A DNA stretch of 64,000 nt, taken from contig NZ_DS483475.1 of the NCBI RefSeq assembly GCF_000154285.1, positions 62,001-126,000 on the forward strand, in the 5' to 3' direction. The stretch is from Amedibacillus dolichus DSM 3991 (lineage in GTDB: Bacteria > Bacillota_I > Bacilli_A > Erysipelotrichales > Erysipelotrichaceae). Shown piece by piece: positions 50,855-62,104 of this stretch (positions are counted from its first letter, which is position 1; the number at the start of each line of letters is the position of its first letter). The notes under the pieces are model-generated. The model did not search any database and was not told the DNA's origin. It worked only from the letters and a program-made list of their open reading frames with translations. The position numbers and the translations under genes are program-made.

Positions 50855-51184
50855 TTAAAATATAAAGCCGACAACACGGATATCAATCATATCTGGTGTA
50901 TATCCGGTCATATGTTCAATATTTTCAAAGATCTTGCCTTGCACGTCTACACAAACTTGATTCACGTTTGCATTATAATTCACTTTCACATCAGCACTCA
51001 ACAACAGCTGATCATTCACAATCTTACAAGTAATCGCATACTTGAAAGGAGCATTGCTCTCCGCTAACTTTAAACGTTCGTCCTCTTCAATCACATTTTT
51101 CGCAATTGTCTGAAAAGCCGATTTGTTCAAAGCTATTACACCAATCTTGTTATTGTCTTTTAATACTATATATTCCTGCGCCAT
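50855..51184 (-). CDS. yqhY: Asp23/Gls24 family protein (YqhY-like)
   Basis: A 109-aa small alpha/beta protein of the Asp23/DUF322 family. The GVIALNKSAFQTIAKNVIEED start and the VNQVCVDVQGKIFENIEHMTG helix (core VQGKIFENIEHMTG) fit the family. In B. subtilis YqhY is linked to acetyl-CoA carboxylase control and lies next to nusB. It is the first gene of the long minus-strand unit running to spoIVB; TATAAT (minus strand, 51213-51208) is a candidate -10. Confidence 0.8.
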   Translation of the reverse strand: MAQEYIVLKDNNKIGVIALNKSAFQTIAKNVIEEDERLKLAESNAPFKYAITCKIVNDQLLLSADVKVNYNANVNQVCVDVQGKIFENIEHMTGYTPDMIDIRVVGFIF

Positions 51185-51443: not shown

Positions 51444-53825
51444 TTATCTCTTTCTTATCTTTCTAAGCTTATATGCATTGTTTAAAATAATACAAATGAT
51501 GAATTGCACAACAATAGAAACTAATAAAACCGATATACCGGTGGATATACTAATGCTTGTATTGCCGTATTGCTGTGCAAGGAAGCCATCTGCCACATTG
51601 ACACTGTCCATATAGGTCGTAGGGAACAGATGTGCATACTGTGCTATGCCTCTGACTAACTTCGGTAAATATACAAATCCCAAAATTACTAGCAATGCGG
51701 TAATAAGCACAAACATATCTTCTCGTATCAAGAACGATAGTATATATACGAAAATACTTAAGTTGATCGTAAATAAAACACCAAGGAAGAACCACTTCTT
51801 GAACATACTAATCATGCTTACCGCTTGCCATACTCCTTCACTGTTTTGAAGCATGAACGGCTGTTGTAGTCCAGCATTGCCTGTAAATAGGGTTGTAATC
51901 AAAAGAATAGAAAGTAACAATACGGAATACATGGCAACCGTAAATACGATGCCAAGCATAAGTTTCGTTAAAAAGGTCTTTTTGCTTTGTAAAGGATATA
52001 AAACACTGATGTCCAATCCCTTTACATAATCTAAAGTAAAGAACTGCGCTAAAAGATAGATGCAACAAATCGTAAGAATGATTGGTAAAATGAGCTTAGT
52101 AAGCGATGTGGTAAAGCTTAAACCATAGATTGGGAAGTCTATGTTCTCGTATGCAAGATCATGCTCTTGTAAATATTCGAAATAAGCAATCTGTTGTTGG
52201 AAGAATTGAATACCATCTATATTTTCGCTTTCGTTATGCTTTAAATCAGTTATTTGTTTTTCCAATATCTTAGGATAGAGAGTATAGACTGTTTCCCAAT
52301 CCTCTTTTTCAATACTGCTTAACACTTTTTTGTAATCTTCATTATCATTTTTAGAATCTTTTATTAGATTCCCATAATTTATATATTCAGCACTGCCTTT
52401 CTTATGCTCTGACTGTTCTTTTTGCACCTCTTGTATATATTTTTCATTGTTTATGATCTGTCCTTTTATTGTTTCTTCTAATTTTGATTGATTCCCCATA
52501 TTCATCAAAAGGAATACAACTGCCACAACAACCGTAAGTAGTATCATCACGATGTTGGACTTTCTGCATAATACCCGCTTGCTCGTGAACTTGATATATC
52601 CCCATATTCCTTTCGTTGCTTTATCATTGTGATAGGTTTCTTTTGATTCATTGGAAACAACCATGACTTTCTCTTTTTTCTTCCATGAGAAATCACAGAA
52701 GAAATAGTATGCTGCCATTAACACAAGGTTGCTTATAGTAAGCACAATAACACCGTTTATGAAATTGATATTGGCATTTCCTAACGTGAACATCATCTCT
52801 CCGCTGATTACCTGTAAGGAATTAAAATAGGTTGTCGGGAACAAGTGTGCTACATCATACAATGGAACAATGTTGGTTGTAACCCACATACCACCTAGAA
52901 TCACCGCCAAAGAGAAAAGTAAACATACGATATTTCTCTTTAAGAAAGTAGAAATAACAGAAACTGTATTTATGATGAATAGAACAACTAAAGTTCCAAG
53001 CAATGCTAATTGTGGAAGTAATGTCATGAAGGAAACATACACATCATCTCCCTTTAATGTATAAGTTAAAACAGGTGAATGTATCGTTCCGATGCCTTCG
53101 ATCACACCGGCATATAACAAGATGAAGGTAGCAAAAAATATAAACAGTCCAAACCCCAAAGCTACATTAGCTAACATTTTTGAACCTAGCTTTTTAAATT
53201 TGCTTAGCGGTAAGGTCTTATGCACATCAATGCGATCTACATAAGAAGAACAATACAGATTAGAGGCAAGAAAAACAATCAAGATAGCAAAGATGAGCGG
53301 AAAATAATTATTAATCATATCTACTAAAAAAGAAAACCCATGAATAGAACCGAAACGTGTTTCAAAATATGATCCGTTTTCTGCCATATACAATGCAAAC
53401 TTTTTATTTACTCTATTCACATCATTCATTTCTTCATCAATATGTCCTACCGATTCATTAAATTCGACGCCAAGATCTATTAGTTTAGCATCAGCTTCAT
53501 AATAACTTTTCCAATCTCGATCTAACAGACTCTGTGAACGTATTTCGTGATATTTCTTTTCCTTTTGCAGTATATCTAATTGTTTTGATATAAGGTTGTA
53601 TGTTTCAGAGCCTTTTTCATACGTATCAAGCCATTCTTCAGAACCTTTTATACTCTGCTCTATGCCTGCTAACTCTTGTTCACGATTTTCTGTATTTTCA
53701 AATGTATAAGCAACATTTATTTCACCTTTATACATGAAAGTAATAAAAAAAATCACCAACAACAATAAGATTATATTAAGCTTCTTCTTCCCATTCTTTT
53801 TGATTAAAAAAGTAAAGAAATTCAT
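51444..53825 (-). CDS. ABC permease made of two fused homologous halves
   Basis: A 793-aa membrane protein. Each half has one N-terminal helix, a charged extracytoplasmic coiled region of about 120-150 residues and about five more helices. The halves share aligned landmarks: GFSF and GLSF before the second helix, then AHLFPTTY near residues 327 and 735. This points to an internal duplication of an ABC-2-type permease. It overlaps the ATPase stop by 4 nt. The family may export peptides or give antimicrobial resistance; the substrate is unknown. It is intact, although its ATPase is frameshifted. Confidence 0.75.
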   Translation of the reverse strand: MNFFTFLIKKNGKKKLNIILLLLVIFFITFMYKGEINVAYTFENTENREQELAGIEQSIKGSEEWLDTYEKGSETYNLISKQLDILQKEKKYHEIRSQSLLDRDWKSYYEADAKLIDLGVEFNESVGHIDEEMNDVNRVNKKFALYMAENGSYFETRFGSIHGFSFLVDMINNYFPLIFAILIVFLASNLYCSSYVDRIDVHKTLPLSKFKKLGSKMLANVALGFGLFIFFATFILLYAGVIEGIGTIHSPVLTYTLKGDDVYVSFMTLLPQLALLGTLVVLFIINTVSVISTFLKRNIVCLLFSLAVILGGMWVTTNIVPLYDVAHLFPTTYFNSLQVISGEMMFTLGNANINFINGVIVLTISNLVLMAAYYFFCDFSWKKKEKVMVVSNESKETYHNDKATKGIWGYIKFTSKRVLCRKSNIVMILLTVVVAVVFLLMNMGNQSKLEETIKGQIINNEKYIQEVQKEQSEHKKGSAEYINYGNLIKDSKNDNEDYKKVLSSIEKEDWETVYTLYPKILEKQITDLKHNESENIDGIQFFQQQIAYFEYLQEHDLAYENIDFPIYGLSFTTSLTKLILPIILTICCIYLLAQFFTLDYVKGLDISVLYPLQSKKTFLTKLMLGIVFTVAMYSVLLLSILLITTLFTGNAGLQQPFMLQNSEGVWQAVSMISMFKKWFFLGVLFTINLSIFVYILSFLIREDMFVLITALLVILGFVYLPKLVRGIAQYAHLFPTTYMDSVNVADGFLAQQYGNTSISISTGISVLLVSIVVQFIICIILNNAYKLRKIRKR

Positions 53826-54440
53826 GCCTTTACCTCAATAAGCGTACGGTCATGTATTTGCAGAACGGTATCGCAATATGCAACAATCTCGTCTTTATAA
53901 TGGGAAGATAATAAAATCGTTTTGCCTTGTTTTTTTAGGTTTAAGATCTGTTGGAAGAAATGCTTACGATTATCCTCGTCAAGTCCGTTCGTGATTTCGT
54001 CCATGATCAAATATTTCGCATCACTTACCAGATATAAGCCAATAACCAATCGCTGTTTCATACCTAGAGAATATTTCCTTGTCGGTATCTTGATATAGCC
54101 GCCCATATCCCATTCCTCAATGATCTGATTGATGTCTACATCGGATTTCCATGTATTCTTCACAAAGCGAAGATAATCTAAGCCGCTTAGGTTCTTATCA
54201 AGCCATTCCACACTTTCAAAATAGAAAATATCCTGCATTTTCTTTTCCGCATCGACACCATCAAAAAGAACCTCTCCGCCCTTTGCATGTAATAAATTTA
54301 CCATCGTACGAAAGAGCGTTGTTTTCCCCGTTCCGTTTTCCGCAACGACACCGTATATGATATCATCATGAAATGTATAGTCTACATTCGTTAAAATCGG
54401 GTGTCTTGTTTCAATCGTAATGTTTTTTTAGTTCAATCAT
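53822..54440 (-). pseudogene. ABC ATPase with one-base frameshift
   Basis: The frame from 54304 (160 aa) holds the signature YSLGMKQR, Walker B YLIMDEITNGLD and SSHYKDE but lacks Walker A. The missing part lies upstream in another frame: ATG at 54440 starts MIELK, and after a run of seven A (plus-strand T7, 54423-54429) the coding continues as NITIETRHPILTNV and Walker A AENGTGKTTLF. With six A the frame would be continuous. It may be a pseudogene, a phase-variable tract, slippage-corrected, or a sequencing error. Confidence 0.8.
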
Positions 54441-54803: not shown

Positions 54804-55307
54804 CTATTTCTTAAAAGTAACCTCCACAAAATAGGCATTGTTTGTAATACTGCTGGTTTTAATTAAAATATCCTTTGCGACCTCTTTGGATTCCTTCGGC
54901 TCAAAAACATTTACAATACAGGTTGTATCCTTGATTTCCACTGCACATTTATAACCGGATTCTTCCAATTTTTTAACGATTTCCTCTTGCATCTGTTTTC
55001 GTTTTTCAACATCGTCCATTGCGGCAATTGCCTGCTTCTTTACTTCCTCACTTGCGTTTTCATCAGCAACACTTTCACTTTGCTTATTATATTCTACCTC
55101 TAGCTTTTGATTGATGGTTTCCTGCAACTTACCAACTGGATCCTCCTGCTTTTGATTTTCTGATGTATCCTTCGTTTTTGCCACTTCTTTTTCACTGGTA
55201 TTTTGAATCGAAGCGGTAACCTGATCGTCTGGTAAGGTTACATAATATACAGATAGCATAAGAACAAAGGAAAACATCGTTAAAAATGCAAGTGCTTGTT
55301 TATTCAT
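54804..55307 (-). CDS. spoIIIAH: SpoIIIAH-like sporulation channel protein
   Basis: A 167-aa protein with one N-terminal membrane helix (residues about 5-24, FLTMFSFVLMLSVYYVTLP), a charged helical middle with EEVKKQAIAAMDDVEKRKQMQEEIVKKL (core AIAAMDDVEKRKQMQEE) and a C-terminal YscJ/FliF-like ring-building fold (YKCAVEIKDTTCIVNVF). SpoIIIAH forms the mother-cell side of the SpoIIQ-SpoIIIAH channel. It stands alone here, without spoIIIAA-AG. A sigma-E-like promoter lies upstream. Confidence 0.82.
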   Translation of the reverse strand: MNKQALAFLTMFSFVLMLSVYYVTLPDDQVTASIQNTSEKEVAKTKDTSENQKQEDPVGKLQETINQKLEVEYNKQSESVADENASEEVKKQAIAAMDDVEKRKQMQEEIVKKLEESGYKCAVEIKDTTCIVNVFEPKESKEVAKDILIKTSSITNNAYFVEVTFKK

Positions 55308-55355: not shown

Positions 55356-56726
55356 CTAAGAAAAGATTTCCTTCAAACGATTTAGCCATTCTTCATAATA
55401 AGCCTGCTGATACTGCATAAAATCATGATATGAAATGACTCGTGTTTCCAATTCCTCAATAAATGTAACAAAGGCTTTGTTGATGGCAATCATCTTATCA
55501 TCATGAATAATATCAATCCGACCGATTTCACACAAAGAAACCGCTAGGATCTTTGCGCATTCATTATGCACCAGTTCCGCCTCCTCCATCGGAAGTTTTA
55601 AGAAGCTGGTATTGAGCCAATAATTATCTACCAAATAATTCTTAATAACATTTAAGAACAGTGTAAAATCCTCCATATTATTTCCCGGCTCGATAGCAAA
55701 CAGCATCTTAAAAAACACAAACCAATCGTAATCCTTATTTAGAACAGATATCAAATGATTTCCTAGTGTATGAATGAAAATATCTTGGGAATGGAAATTT
55801 GCGTCCATTTCGATTTCGTTTTCAAAATCCATTTTTATAGCATTCATTTTTCGAAAGGTGCGAAACAATGCGGAGATACGATCATTGTTTCCTCCGTCAT
55901 AGCGAATATCCTTAATAAAAATATAATGTCCTAAAATCGCTGATGTCTTTTTTAAATTCAAAGTGAAGCCAATGCTTTCATTTAGCTTTAAAGCAAACAA
56001 ATCGTTAATTTCTTTTGAAATCAGTTGTTCAAAGGAATTTTCGGTAATTCCGGTATCAAGTCGTGATTCCTCTTGCATTTGATCATAGATAATTTTCAGC
56101 TGATGATCCGTCAGTGTTAAATTGGCTTTGATAGAGCCTAACAGTTCCTTCATAAAATCATCATATACATAATAATTGGTATTTTTATATACCAACTTAT
56201 GCTCGATATCTCCCCAAAAGGAGTGTACCAAGGCCTTGATTTGTAATTCGACATTGATTTTATGTCCATTTTTCAAATAATATCCATCTATTCGATAAAT
56301 GGCAAAGCCGTTCTTTTGAATTTGCGGTTGGCGGGATTGCACATCTAAAAAGAAATTTGGATTCTGTTCATGATAATAATAACCGTCCTCTGCATTTTTT
56401 TGATTCAGGGTTTCACGTAAATGCTTTAAAACATGAAATTCATCTTCGATAAAACGACATTCGATAATAAAGCCAATCAAATCGCTTAAATGATCGAGAA
56501 TTTGCTGAGCGGTATCGTTTTCCACATAAAAACGATTGCGAATAATCTTTTCCCGTAGACTTTCCTTCGATTTGATACGAGAATTCATATCAACGATCAT
56601 GTCCTGTCCGACAAATAAATATTTCAAATAATCATGAATTTCTTCTACCGCCTCACGATACAAGGGCATATTGGAATCCAAAAGCCGTAACGTATCATCA
56701 ATTGTATCAAATACCTTTAATCGCAC
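55356..56726 (-). CDS. Divergent RelA/SpoT-domain protein
   Basis: A 456-aa soluble protein. Residues about 45-195 look like an RSH nucleotidyltransferase domain: SRIKSKESLREKIIRN, then DLIGFIIECRF, and VELQIKALVHSFWGDIEHKLVYKN. The GYRSLH-type substrate motif is replaced by NGFAIYRIDGYY, so (p)ppGpp synthesis is doubtful. The C-terminal 260 residues are unrecognised and helix-rich. It overlaps the ribF stop by 10 nt. It could bind nucleotides as a sensor rather than synthesise alarmones. Confidence 0.65.
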   Translation of the reverse strand: MRLKVFDTIDDTLRLLDSNMPLYREAVEEIHDYLKYLFVGQDMIVDMNSRIKSKESLREKIIRNRFYVENDTAQQILDHLSDLIGFIIECRFIEDEFHVLKHLRETLNQKNAEDGYYYHEQNPNFFLDVQSRQPQIQKNGFAIYRIDGYYLKNGHKINVELQIKALVHSFWGDIEHKLVYKNTNYYVYDDFMKELLGSIKANLTLTDHQLKIIYDQMQEESRLDTGITENSFEQLISKEINDLFALKLNESIGFTLNLKKTSAILGHYIFIKDIRYDGGNNDRISALFRTFRKMNAIKMDFENEIEMDANFHSQDIFIHTLGNHLISVLNKDYDWFVFFKMLFAIEPGNNMEDFTLFLNVIKNYLVDNYWLNTSFLKLPMEEAELVHNECAKILAVSLCEIGRIDIIHDDKMIAINKAFVTFIEELETRVISYHDFMQYQQAYYEEWLNRLKEIFS

Positions 56727-57661
56727 AAAACCTCACCTACTCTTTCTTGAAAATACTTTCTTGCGACTTGCTTATCCTGTGCAAGCTGTCTTTGCAAAGC
56801 CTGCGCATCAGAAAATTTTTCTTCTTTGCGTAAATAGCTTAGGAAACGAAAGATAACCCTCTGTTCATAAATAGTCGTATCAAAATCCAACAAATGTGCT
56901 TCGATAGAAATATTCTTTTGATAATTATAGGTCGGATTATGCCCGATATTGATAATCGCCTCATACCATCGTCCTTGCACCTTCACCTCTCCGATATAAA
57001 CACCGCCTGCCGGAATAACATAGCGATAGCTTAGCTTTAAATTGGCAGTCGGAAATCCATACCTTCGTCCGAATTGATTTCCTTTAACAACAATCCCCTC
57101 CAATTCATAGGGGCGCTGTAAAAATACATTTGCCTGCTCGATGTTTCCTTGTCGCAAAAGTTCTTCGATTCGAGAGGAACTGATCTTCTTTGCATCGCTG
57201 CTAACTTGCGCCACAACATCAACTGTAAAATATGGTTGTTTTTTAAGACTTTCGCTATTTCCCTCACCCCGATAGCCGTAATGAAAATCATAGCCGCATA
57301 CTAAGGTTTTTAGCTTCAACGGCTTTAAAACAAGTTCATGAAAATCCTCAACACGCAACTGCTGCATATCCTTTTCAAAAGTAAGAATGATCCATGTTTC
57401 AATTCCTAATTCTTCGGCAATTTCGATACGCTTATGCATCGGCGTTAAATGCTCCAGATCGTCCATTTGCTTGATTACCGCCCATGGATCCGGCTCAAAA
57501 GTAATCAATGCCGGTTTGGCATTTTGAGCCTTGGCATGAGCAAGCACATGAGTTATCAGCTGTCGATGCCCTACATGCAAGCCATCAAAATACCCAATAC
57601 ATGCCACCAAAGGAGTATCCGGCTGTATCGGGTGTCGTAAATCAAAATGTATTATTTCCAT
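56717..57661 (-). CDS. ribF: Bifunctional riboflavin kinase/FAD synthetase
   Basis: A 314-aa enzyme that makes FMN and FAD. The N-terminal adenylyltransferase domain has CIGYFDGLHVGHRQLI and the ISSSRIEELL end. The C-terminal kinase domain has GNQFGRRYGFPTANL and the catalytic-region IEAHLLDFD. The Met at 57661 gives the family N-terminus (MEIIHFD); a 10-residue extension is possible. Adjacent to truB, as in most Firmicutes. Confidence 0.95.
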   Translation of the reverse strand: MEIIHFDLRHPIQPDTPLVACIGYFDGLHVGHRQLITHVLAHAKAQNAKPALITFEPDPWAVIKQMDDLEHLTPMHKRIEIAEELGIETWIILTFEKDMQQLRVEDFHELVLKPLKLKTLVCGYDFHYGYRGEGNSESLKKQPYFTVDVVAQVSSDAKKISSSRIEELLRQGNIEQANVFLQRPYELEGIVVKGNQFGRRYGFPTANLKLSYRYVIPAGGVYIGEVKVQGRWYEAIINIGHNPTYNYQKNISIEAHLLDFDTTIYEQRVIFRFLSYLRKEEKFSDAQALQRQLAQDKQVARKYFQERVGEVLCD

Positions 57662-57669
57662 AGTTTCAC

Positions 57670-58500
57670 CTACCACAATCCACGCACACAACGAAACACA
57701 TTTCCATGGTCTCTTTCATAGATAGCAACTGCCTCTAGGTGATCCATAATAACAGCCCTATCTTCCTTACAATCCAATCGTACGTGCTTTCCATTATAAA
57801 TATCCTTCATCGGTTCATAAGTAATTTGTGGCAAATGCGCCAACACCTCTGCCACACTATGTAAGGAAAAATGTCCTGCTTCGACATCTTCCAACGTTAC
57901 ACAGTCCGCCAAGGAAAAACGACCGACCTTTGTTCGAACCAGTGATTTCATACAGCCTAGATTTCCACTTGCTTGCGCAACATCGCGACAAAGTGAACGA
58001 ATATAGGTACCACTGCTGCAAGCAACTCGAAAGCGCATGCTTTCTTCATCTAAAACTTCTAGCTCGTAAAAAGTAACATCGCGCATAGGCACCTCTACCG
58101 CTTCCTTGTTTCGTGCATATTCATACAACTTTTTCCCATTTACTTTAATACTGGAAAGCATTGGCGGAAGTTGCTTTTGTTTTCCTAAAAAGGTATGTAA
58201 CAGCGCTTGCAAATCGATAATCGGAGTAATTTCTTTTTCCGCTAAAACCTCGCTCCAAATATCATCACCGAGGGTTTGCTTACCCAATTCCAATTCCGCT
58301 ATGTATTCCTTATCCGTATCCTCAAGAAACGGCAGTACCTTACAGGCTCGTCCAATCAACACCAAAAGTACCCCGGTCGCATTCGGGTCCAATGTACCGC
58401 TATGACCGATTTTTTTAGTTTTCAATATATGCCGCAAGCGGGCAACCACATCGTGTGATGTCATTTCCGCTTCTTTGCGAATCAATAAAACTCCGTCCAT
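57670..58500 (-). CDS. truB: tRNA pseudouridine-55 synthase
   Basis: A 276-aa enzyme that makes psi-55 in the T-loop of tRNA. The start MDGVLLIRKEAEMTSHDVV, the catalytic Asp in GHSGTLDPNATGVLL and CSSGTYIRSLCRD are typical. The usual PUA-like tail is short. It is followed on the same strand after 8 nt by ribF. Confidence 0.96.
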   Translation of the reverse strand: MDGVLLIRKEAEMTSHDVVARLRHILKTKKIGHSGTLDPNATGVLLVLIGRACKVLPFLEDTDKEYIAELELGKQTLGDDIWSEVLAEKEITPIIDLQALLHTFLGKQKQLPPMLSSIKVNGKKLYEYARNKEAVEVPMRDVTFYELEVLDEESMRFRVACSSGTYIRSLCRDVAQASGNLGCMKSLVRTKVGRFSLADCVTLEDVEAGHFSLHSVAEVLAHLPQITYEPMKDIYNGKHVRLDCKEDRAVIMDHLEAVAIYERDHGNVFRCVRGLW

Positions 58501-60926: not shown

Positions 60927-61745
60927 TTAGTTTAAATTATTCTGGTAGTAGTTTTTTTCATATTTGTTTGGAGATTGGTAATCACAATGAGAATGTATTC
61001 TTACTGTATTGTAAAATCCTTCTATGTATTCAAATACCATCTGATAAGCTTCTGAATAGTCATTTATCTTTTTTCTGTTTAGCCATTCTCTTTTTATCAA
61101 TGCATGAAATGATTCTATGCATGCATTATCCCATGGATTCCCTTTTTTAGAGTAACTGCCGATCATTCCTACCGTTAGATTATAGTATTTTTTTGATGTG
61201 AATTGAACACCTCTGTCACTGTGTATTACTACCGGATTATCTGTTTTTCTCCTCCTTTTTGCTTCTTCCAGACATTTTAATACTTCCTCTACTTCCATTG
61301 TTTTTGTTAGTTTCCAGGCTATTATTTTTCTTGAGTATAAATCCATTATACTTGTCAGATACACAAATCCTTCTTCCTGTGTCCAAATATAGGTTATATC
61401 TGTACACCAGGCTGAATTCGGCTTTTCAGGATTGAAATTACGTTTTAGAATATTCTTCAGTTTTGATGAAAAATCACTGTCCTTAGTGGTTATTGTGCAT
61501 GGTCTGATATAATGGGCTTTAATACCCATCTCACGCATAATATTGCCCACATATTTTTCGCTGACTTTTATTCCTGACTGATTCAGTTTTACAGTTATTT
61601 TCGGTGCTCCATAAATTTCATGTGATTCTTCATGAATTGCTTTTATTTTTTTACTGAGTTCTTGTTTTCTAACTTTTTGTTTAGAAGGTTTTCTGTTAAC
61701 ATAATCATAATATCCTGATTTACTGACATTAAGTTTATCGAGCAT
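60927..61745 (-). CDS. IS3-family transposase OrfB (copy 2)
   Basis: A 272-aa DDE catalytic subunit, identical to copy 1 except for His in KAIHEESHE. All three catalytic acidic residues are present, so the element may be active. Production as an OrfAB fusion through the upstream slippery site is expected. Confidence 0.92.
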   Translation of the reverse strand: MLDKLNVSKSGYYDYVNRKPSKQKVRKQELSKKIKAIHEESHEIYGAPKITVKLNQSGIKVSEKYVGNIMREMGIKAHYIRPCTITTKDSDFSSKLKNILKRNFNPEKPNSAWCTDITYIWTQEEGFVYLTSIMDLYSRKIIAWKLTKTMEVEEVLKCLEEAKRRRKTDNPVVIHSDRGVQFTSKKYYNLTVGMIGSYSKKGNPWDNACIESFHALIKREWLNRKKINDYSEAYQMVFEYIEGFYNTVRIHSHCDYQSPNKYEKNYYQNNLN

Positions 61746-61813
61746 ACCGGAAATCGAAGCATTATTATCATTCTGCTTTTTTATTTTGATTTGATAATAA
61801 AGTTCCTGTTTCG

Positions 61814-62104
61814 TTATTTTCCCAGTATGCCAATAGCCTTTTTTAAGACATCAAGCGCATCCTGTGTATCTTTAAGCTCCTTACGCAAACGAGCAATTTC
61901 TTTAGCTTCATCACTAGAGAAATTACCAGAACCTCTGGAAACAATAGTACCATTATTTTTATCAGCATCTTTCACCCATTTATGAACAGTACTGTCAGCA
62001 ATGTCAAAACGTTTAGCAATAGAAAGTTTAGATTCATCAGGATGATCAAGTACATACTGAACAACTCCTTGTTTAAATTCATCTGTAAATGTAGGTTTAG
62101 CCAT
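61814..62104 (-). CDS. IS3-family OrfA (copy 2)
   Basis: A 96-aa helix-turn-helix protein identical to that of copy 1. The slippery heptamer A-AAA-AAG lies at the plus-strand CTTTTTT, 61838-61844. After slippage the frame reads GYWHTGKITKQELYYQIK and continues without stop into OrfB. Confidence 0.9.
   Translation of the reverse strand: MAKPTFTDEFKQGVVQYVLDHPDESKLSIAKRFDIADSTVHKWVKDADKNNGTIVSRGSGNFSSDEAKEIARLRKELKDTQDALDVLKKAIGILGK

Follow-up and report, generated by a model that had tools for sequence, protein, structure and literature searches.

Synthetases of the RelA/SpoT homologue (RSH) family are usually described as producers of (p)ppGpp or (p)ppApp, or as toxins that modify tRNAs. To our knowledge, the characterised RSH synthetases rely on a tyrosine in the G-loop. 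Here, a gene was analyzed that is located on a stretch of 64,000 nucleotides of Amedibacillus dolichus DSM 3991 (contig NZ_DS483475.1, positions 62,001 to 126,000; the whole stretch is called the window below) and encodes an RSH protein in which this part of the active site has been replaced, denoted variant RSH. The closest described enzymes are the small alarmone synthetases (SAS) RelP/YwaC and RelQ/YjbM (PDB 6fgk, 6ewz, 5ded), which share with variant RSH the SYNTH fold, the residues for triphosphate and Mg binding, and the ELQI/EIQI and EH motifs. In contrast to them, variant RSH has neither the GYRSLH motif nor the G-loop tyrosine, usually lacks the second of two adenine-stacking arginines, and has an additional C-terminus of about 270 residues that is predicted to be helical. 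The distance is also evident from the NCBIfam equivalog for YjbM, for which variant RSH scored 38 bits, compared to a cut-off of 320. The tRNA pyrophosphokinases among the toxic SAS (toxSAS), FaRel2 and CapRel, have the same fold and the same ATP-donor chemistry, which variant RSH appears to share, judged by its residues. With tRNA as a non-alarmone acceptor they are a precedent for this fold (PMC11782079). However, FaRel2 uses the canonical acceptor tyrosine (Y128) and is encoded together with an antitoxin (PMC11782079), and variant RSH shows neither. The long Rel/RelA/SpoT enzymes share the SYNTH domain family, while SYNTH is the sole recognised domain of variant RSH.

The ATP-gripping part of the protein has been kept and a different, strictly conserved motif is present at the place of the second substrate, and thus the acceptor is probably other than GTP or GDP. 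Based on the sequence comparisons described below, there is about an even chance that variant RSH is a housekeeping ATP-dependent pyrophosphotransferase with a non-canonical acceptor, which represents its own branch of RSH synthetase-fold enzymes. A vertically inherited and strongly constrained branch with the ATP half kept and the acceptor half rebuilt would widen the roles of this fold in normal physiology, and that in a common gut lineage.

The conserved ATP half and the rebuilt acceptor loop

The open reading frame of variant RSH (55356-56726, minus strand, as are all parts of this gene and its conserved neighbours given below with window coordinates) has 456 codons and a GTG start, which is preceded at a distance of 4 nt by the Shine-Dalgarno-like sequence AGGTGAGG (56731-56738). 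The SYNTH domain comprises residues 44-185 (56172-56597). The Pfam family RelA_SpoT (PF04607) matched residues 49-184 with 48.2 bits (E=1.5e-12; cut-off 27), and all 31 members of a deeper alignment, A2, also matched this family. It was the only Pfam match at E<=1, and HD hydrolase, TGS and ACT domains were thus not found. A phmmer search against the PDB matched YwaC/RelP at 6e-8. In addition, the structure was predicted without making use of alignment A2, and the best 40 Foldseek matches of the predicted fold in the PDB were RelP, RelQ and related GTP-pyrophosphokinase structures as well as RelSeq (probability 1.00). Hence, the assignment to the RSH family, which a first-pass annotation had made from the letters alone, was confirmed by domain match and fold; the lack of an RSH fold, which that annotation had named as the refuting outcome, was not observed.

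The roles of the donor-site residues are known from the structure of SaRelP, in which the adenine is sandwiched by R78 and R112, the triphosphate is held by K80, S84, K88 and R91, Mg is bound by D107 and E174, and the ribose contacts H190 (PMC5794853). The equivalent residues were read from a mixed alignment of variant and canonical proteins. R78, K80, S84, K88 and R91 correspond to R50, K52, S56, K60 and R63 of variant RSH (56538-56579), which lie in the SRIKSKES start and the residues following it. D107 corresponds to D82, in a block that also contains G85, C90, R91 and F92 (56451-56483). E174 and H190 correspond to E160 and H176, which belong to a segment reading E160-L-Q-I-K, FW, E175-H176 and YKN (56181-56249). 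Both the SRIKSKES start and the VELQIKAL...FW...EHK blocks are present as annotated. Conservation was analyzed in an alignment of 58 homologues with identities down to about 30%, and each of the eight donor-side residues was found to be invariant or present in 57 of the 58 sequences.

The situation is very different for the acceptor side. In SaRelP, Y151 of the G-loop positions the acceptor base (PMC5794853). Where canonical enzymes have NGYRSLH, variant RSH reads NGFAIYRIDG, so that the NG is retained and the tyrosine is replaced by F141, in agreement with the replacement noted in the first-pass annotation. The altered motif, QPQIQKNGFAIYRIDG (residues 133-148; 56283-56330), has the family consensus QPQxQ(K/R)NGFxIYRxDG, and this is the 16-residue segment of highest conservation in the entire protein. 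Q133, P134, Q137, N139, G140, R145, D147 and G148 are invariant in all 58 homologues, and Y144 is found in 55 of them and replaced by Phe in three. Position 141 itself is more variable, i.e., Phe is present in 50 and Tyr in four of the 58 sequences, and His, Leu and Cys are also tolerated. The dN/dS ratios of close pairs (Nei-Gojobori) were only 0.015-0.08. The invariance of the loop and the low dN/dS values indicate that the loop has been remodelled and preserved since, and not lost. For the same reasons a chance or degenerate motif could be ruled out. An alignment of the YR of the loop with the YR of GYRSLH was also considered, and was found to be less likely because the mixed alignment places the NG of the two motifs at the same positions and because the predicted length of the hairpin puts F141 where the tyrosine would be.

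The C-terminal half (residues 186-456, about 270 residues; 55356-56171) was predicted to be all-helical in two AlphaFold predictions of low confidence, and no match was found in Pfam, PDB or PHROGs. This is in line with the first-pass annotation of a helical, unknown C-terminal half.

Occurrence of the variant branch

The occurrence of variant RSH was surveyed systematically in the family, the order and the phylum of the window. It is present in 58 of 196 genomes of the family, usually in one copy, and some copies are split at contig ends. At the level of the order, 96 of 295 genomes and 22 of 79 genera had a match, and all of these belong to the window's own family. Apart from these, the phylum survey gave full-length matches only in four genomes, all from a genus (taken here to be Turicibacter-like) that belongs to the same class; in the family of this second Bacilli genus five of eight genomes contain a full-length variant. 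A further full-length homologue, 34% identical, is encoded by Acetoanaerobium noterae, a member of the Clostridia, which were outside the systematic sampling. In a phylogenetic tree the variant branch is separated from the canonical SAS and the long Rel proteins with a support of 100/100, whereby the bootstraps are rough and the branch is long. Full-length copies on phages or plasmids were not found, with the exception of a chromosome-sized record of 2.6 Mb that is filed as a plasmid. Variant RSH is a single-copy, vertically inherited chromosomal gene in a part of the window's family, an Erysipelotrichaceae-type lineage. A literature search retrieved no publication on this branch; a survey of SAS subfamilies (PNAS 2020), which may classify it, was outside its coverage. 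In one relative (G103; L067:4373-5344) an in-frame TAG is found in the N-terminal part of the gene, which is either a sequencing error or the sign of a decaying copy.

Proposed activity and alternative explanations

As a pyrophosphotransferase with another acceptor, variant RSH would hold ATP-Mg at the donor site as other RSH synthetases do, and the acceptor of the pyrophosphate would be positioned without the customary G-loop tyrosine and the GYRSLH loop; catalysis itself is what we infer here. The rebuilt loop with its invariant residues Q133, Q137, N139, R145 and D147 would make up an acceptor site of another kind, and selecting or presenting the acceptor, or regulating the activity, would probably be the task of the helical C-terminal half. 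A different nucleotide or RNA are the obvious candidates for the acceptor, and the adjoining genes for tRNA and rRNA modification are a weak hint in this respect. A more far-reaching version is that variant RSH does not synthesise alarmones and, as a part of the normal growth control of Erysipelotrichaceae-type gut bacteria, transfers pyrophosphate to the end of an RNA or to some other molecule of the cell, making use of its own acceptor-recognition motif. We regard this as possible and propose it only tentatively.

Several results weigh against the proposed activity. The confidence of the structural model is moderate in the domain (blocks mostly with pLDDT values of 60-86) and poor in the C-terminal half, and the mean of the whole chain is 56.7. 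Of the two arginines that stack on the adenine in RelP/RelQ only R50 is present, and the equivalent of R112 is I87; at this position Arg was found in six of the 58 homologues and T, I, S, K or N in 52. This arginine of the GxR motif has been lost in most Erysipelotrichaceae-type members, and it has been kept in the other Bacilli genus, in Acetoanaerobium and in the sister branch described below. Its loss could make ATP binding weaker or different. Lastly, the replacement of the G-loop tyrosine by Phe, which is found in 50 of the 58 homologues, impairs catalysis in FaRel2 (PMC11782079), and thus the canonical activity is unlikely for variant RSH.

The same losses, i.e., of the G-loop tyrosine, of GYRSLH and, in most members, of one adenine-stacking arginine, speak for the main rival explanation, a catalytically dead sensor. 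In this case the domain would bind ATP or an alarmone and relay the signal via the helical C-terminal half without any chemistry. Such a role would also fit to a second RSH protein beside an intact long Rel, which is the situation in every Erysipelotrichaceae-type genome checked (one long Rel in 46 of 46 carriers; the window's genome has a separate long Rel of 743 codons). However, the Mg-binding acids D82 and E160 and the triphosphate block are invariant or nearly so, and a pure sensor need not keep them. The first-pass annotation had named an inactive sensor and a synthetase with another substrate as options. The second option explains the data better because both the donor residues and the new motif are under strong purifying selection, while the sensor remains as a rival that we consider possible but less likely.

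Another reading is that variant RSH has retained the synthesis of (p)ppGpp or pGpp and functionally replaces RelP/RelQ, with the Phe of its diverged G-loop stacking on the guanine. We consider this unlikely. The Phe, or the Tyr present in four homologues, could indeed stack, and only two of the 46 Erysipelotrichaceae-type carriers (G104 and G165) have a canonical SAS, compared to about 45 of the 138 genomes of the family without the variant. This difference is large (Fisher p=6e-5, not corrected for kinship) but only suggestive, because the genomes are related. In contrast, a long Rel, a canonical SAS and the variant occur together in all four carriers checked from the other Bacilli genus. Furthermore, His, Leu and Cys also occur at position 141, and in place of GYRSLH, with its Arg and His, an entirely different and invariant motif is found.

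Gene neighbourhood and the sister branch

The usual gene order is truB-ribF-(rRNA methylase)-RSH-(SpoIIIAH-like)-Asp23. In the window, truB (57670-58500) is followed by ribF (riboflavin kinase/FAD synthetase; 56717-57691), the 3' end of which overlaps the 5' end of the variant RSH gene by 10 nt. Downstream of variant RSH are the genes for a SpoIIIAH-like small membrane protein (54804-55307; Pfam score under the cut-off) and an Asp23 family protein (50855-51184). The upstream gene could be read at 54 loci, and at 49 of these variant RSH directly follows ribF or a gene for an rRNA methylase of the NOL1/NOP2/sun type (RsmF/RsmB-like); this methylase gene itself follows ribF in most loci. The upstream neighbour is on the same strand and usually less than 20 nt apart. 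A SpoIIIAH-like or Asp23 gene is located downstream in 45 loci, at a distance of 12-83 nt, and dnaX replaces the usual neighbour in three loci. Since Bacillota generally have truB followed by ribF, this arrangement is evidence of stable inheritance and of likely co-transcription, and less so of function.

A further alternative is that variant RSH acts as a toxin, in a toxin-antitoxin system of the toxSAS type or in anti-phage defence. It is suggested by the shared fold and by a sister branch next to DGQHR/DpdB-like genes with two cases on plasmids, and the first-pass annotation had mentioned toxic SAS as an example. This is very improbable, because the single-copy gene has kept its chromosomal synteny in about 50 genomes, PADLOC gave no match for the window's branch, an antitoxin-like partner is neither adjacent nor fused to the gene, and no mobile full-length copies were found apart from the record mentioned above.

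Two further features of the region were observed. Between the SpoIIIAH-like and Asp23 genes, which adjoin in relatives, an ABC transporter pair has been inserted (51444-54430), consisting of a permease of 793 aa and an ATPase. The Walker A part of the ATPase lies upstream of the usual starts and behind in-frame stops, and thus this gene is probably broken. Near the conserved cluster, an insertion-sequence-like pair of a DDE transposase and a small helix-turn-helix protein was recognised by eye (60927-62104).

The sister branch was found at four loci, at which a gene for an RSH protein of 310-390 aa is directly followed by a gene with a DGQHR domain (Pfam DndB, PADLOC DpdB-like). The pairs are located at L118:3174-5351, L117:808-3017, L120:5845-8029 and L121:5845-8032, the last two on lactococcal plasmids. 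The branch is sporadic and rare (two of 290 genomes of the order and one of 392 of the phylum). The SYNTH parts of the sister branch and the window's family matched in a profile comparison with E=5e-28 (residues 24-215). The loop of the sister proteins, Q(K/A)NGHxIYK, is of the same type as that of the variant family, with the general form Q-x-NG-x-x-x-Y-(K/R), and therefore this type of loop characterises the branch as a whole. In contrast to variant RSH, the sister proteins keep the Arg of GxR, have His at the position of the tyrosine, are partly plasmid-borne and have an unrelated C-terminus, which could not be aligned with that of the variant by profile comparison. The pair of RSH and DGQHR/DndB-like genes has the appearance of a mobile defence-type unit not described before. 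One of the pairs on lactococcal plasmids is found near genes for a DNA methyltransferase and for abortive infection.

Two more unusual proteins with an RSH domain were detected at L163 and L162 (genomes G141 and G102), one with a YRGVH motif and one with large insertions and a diverged form of YRSLH.
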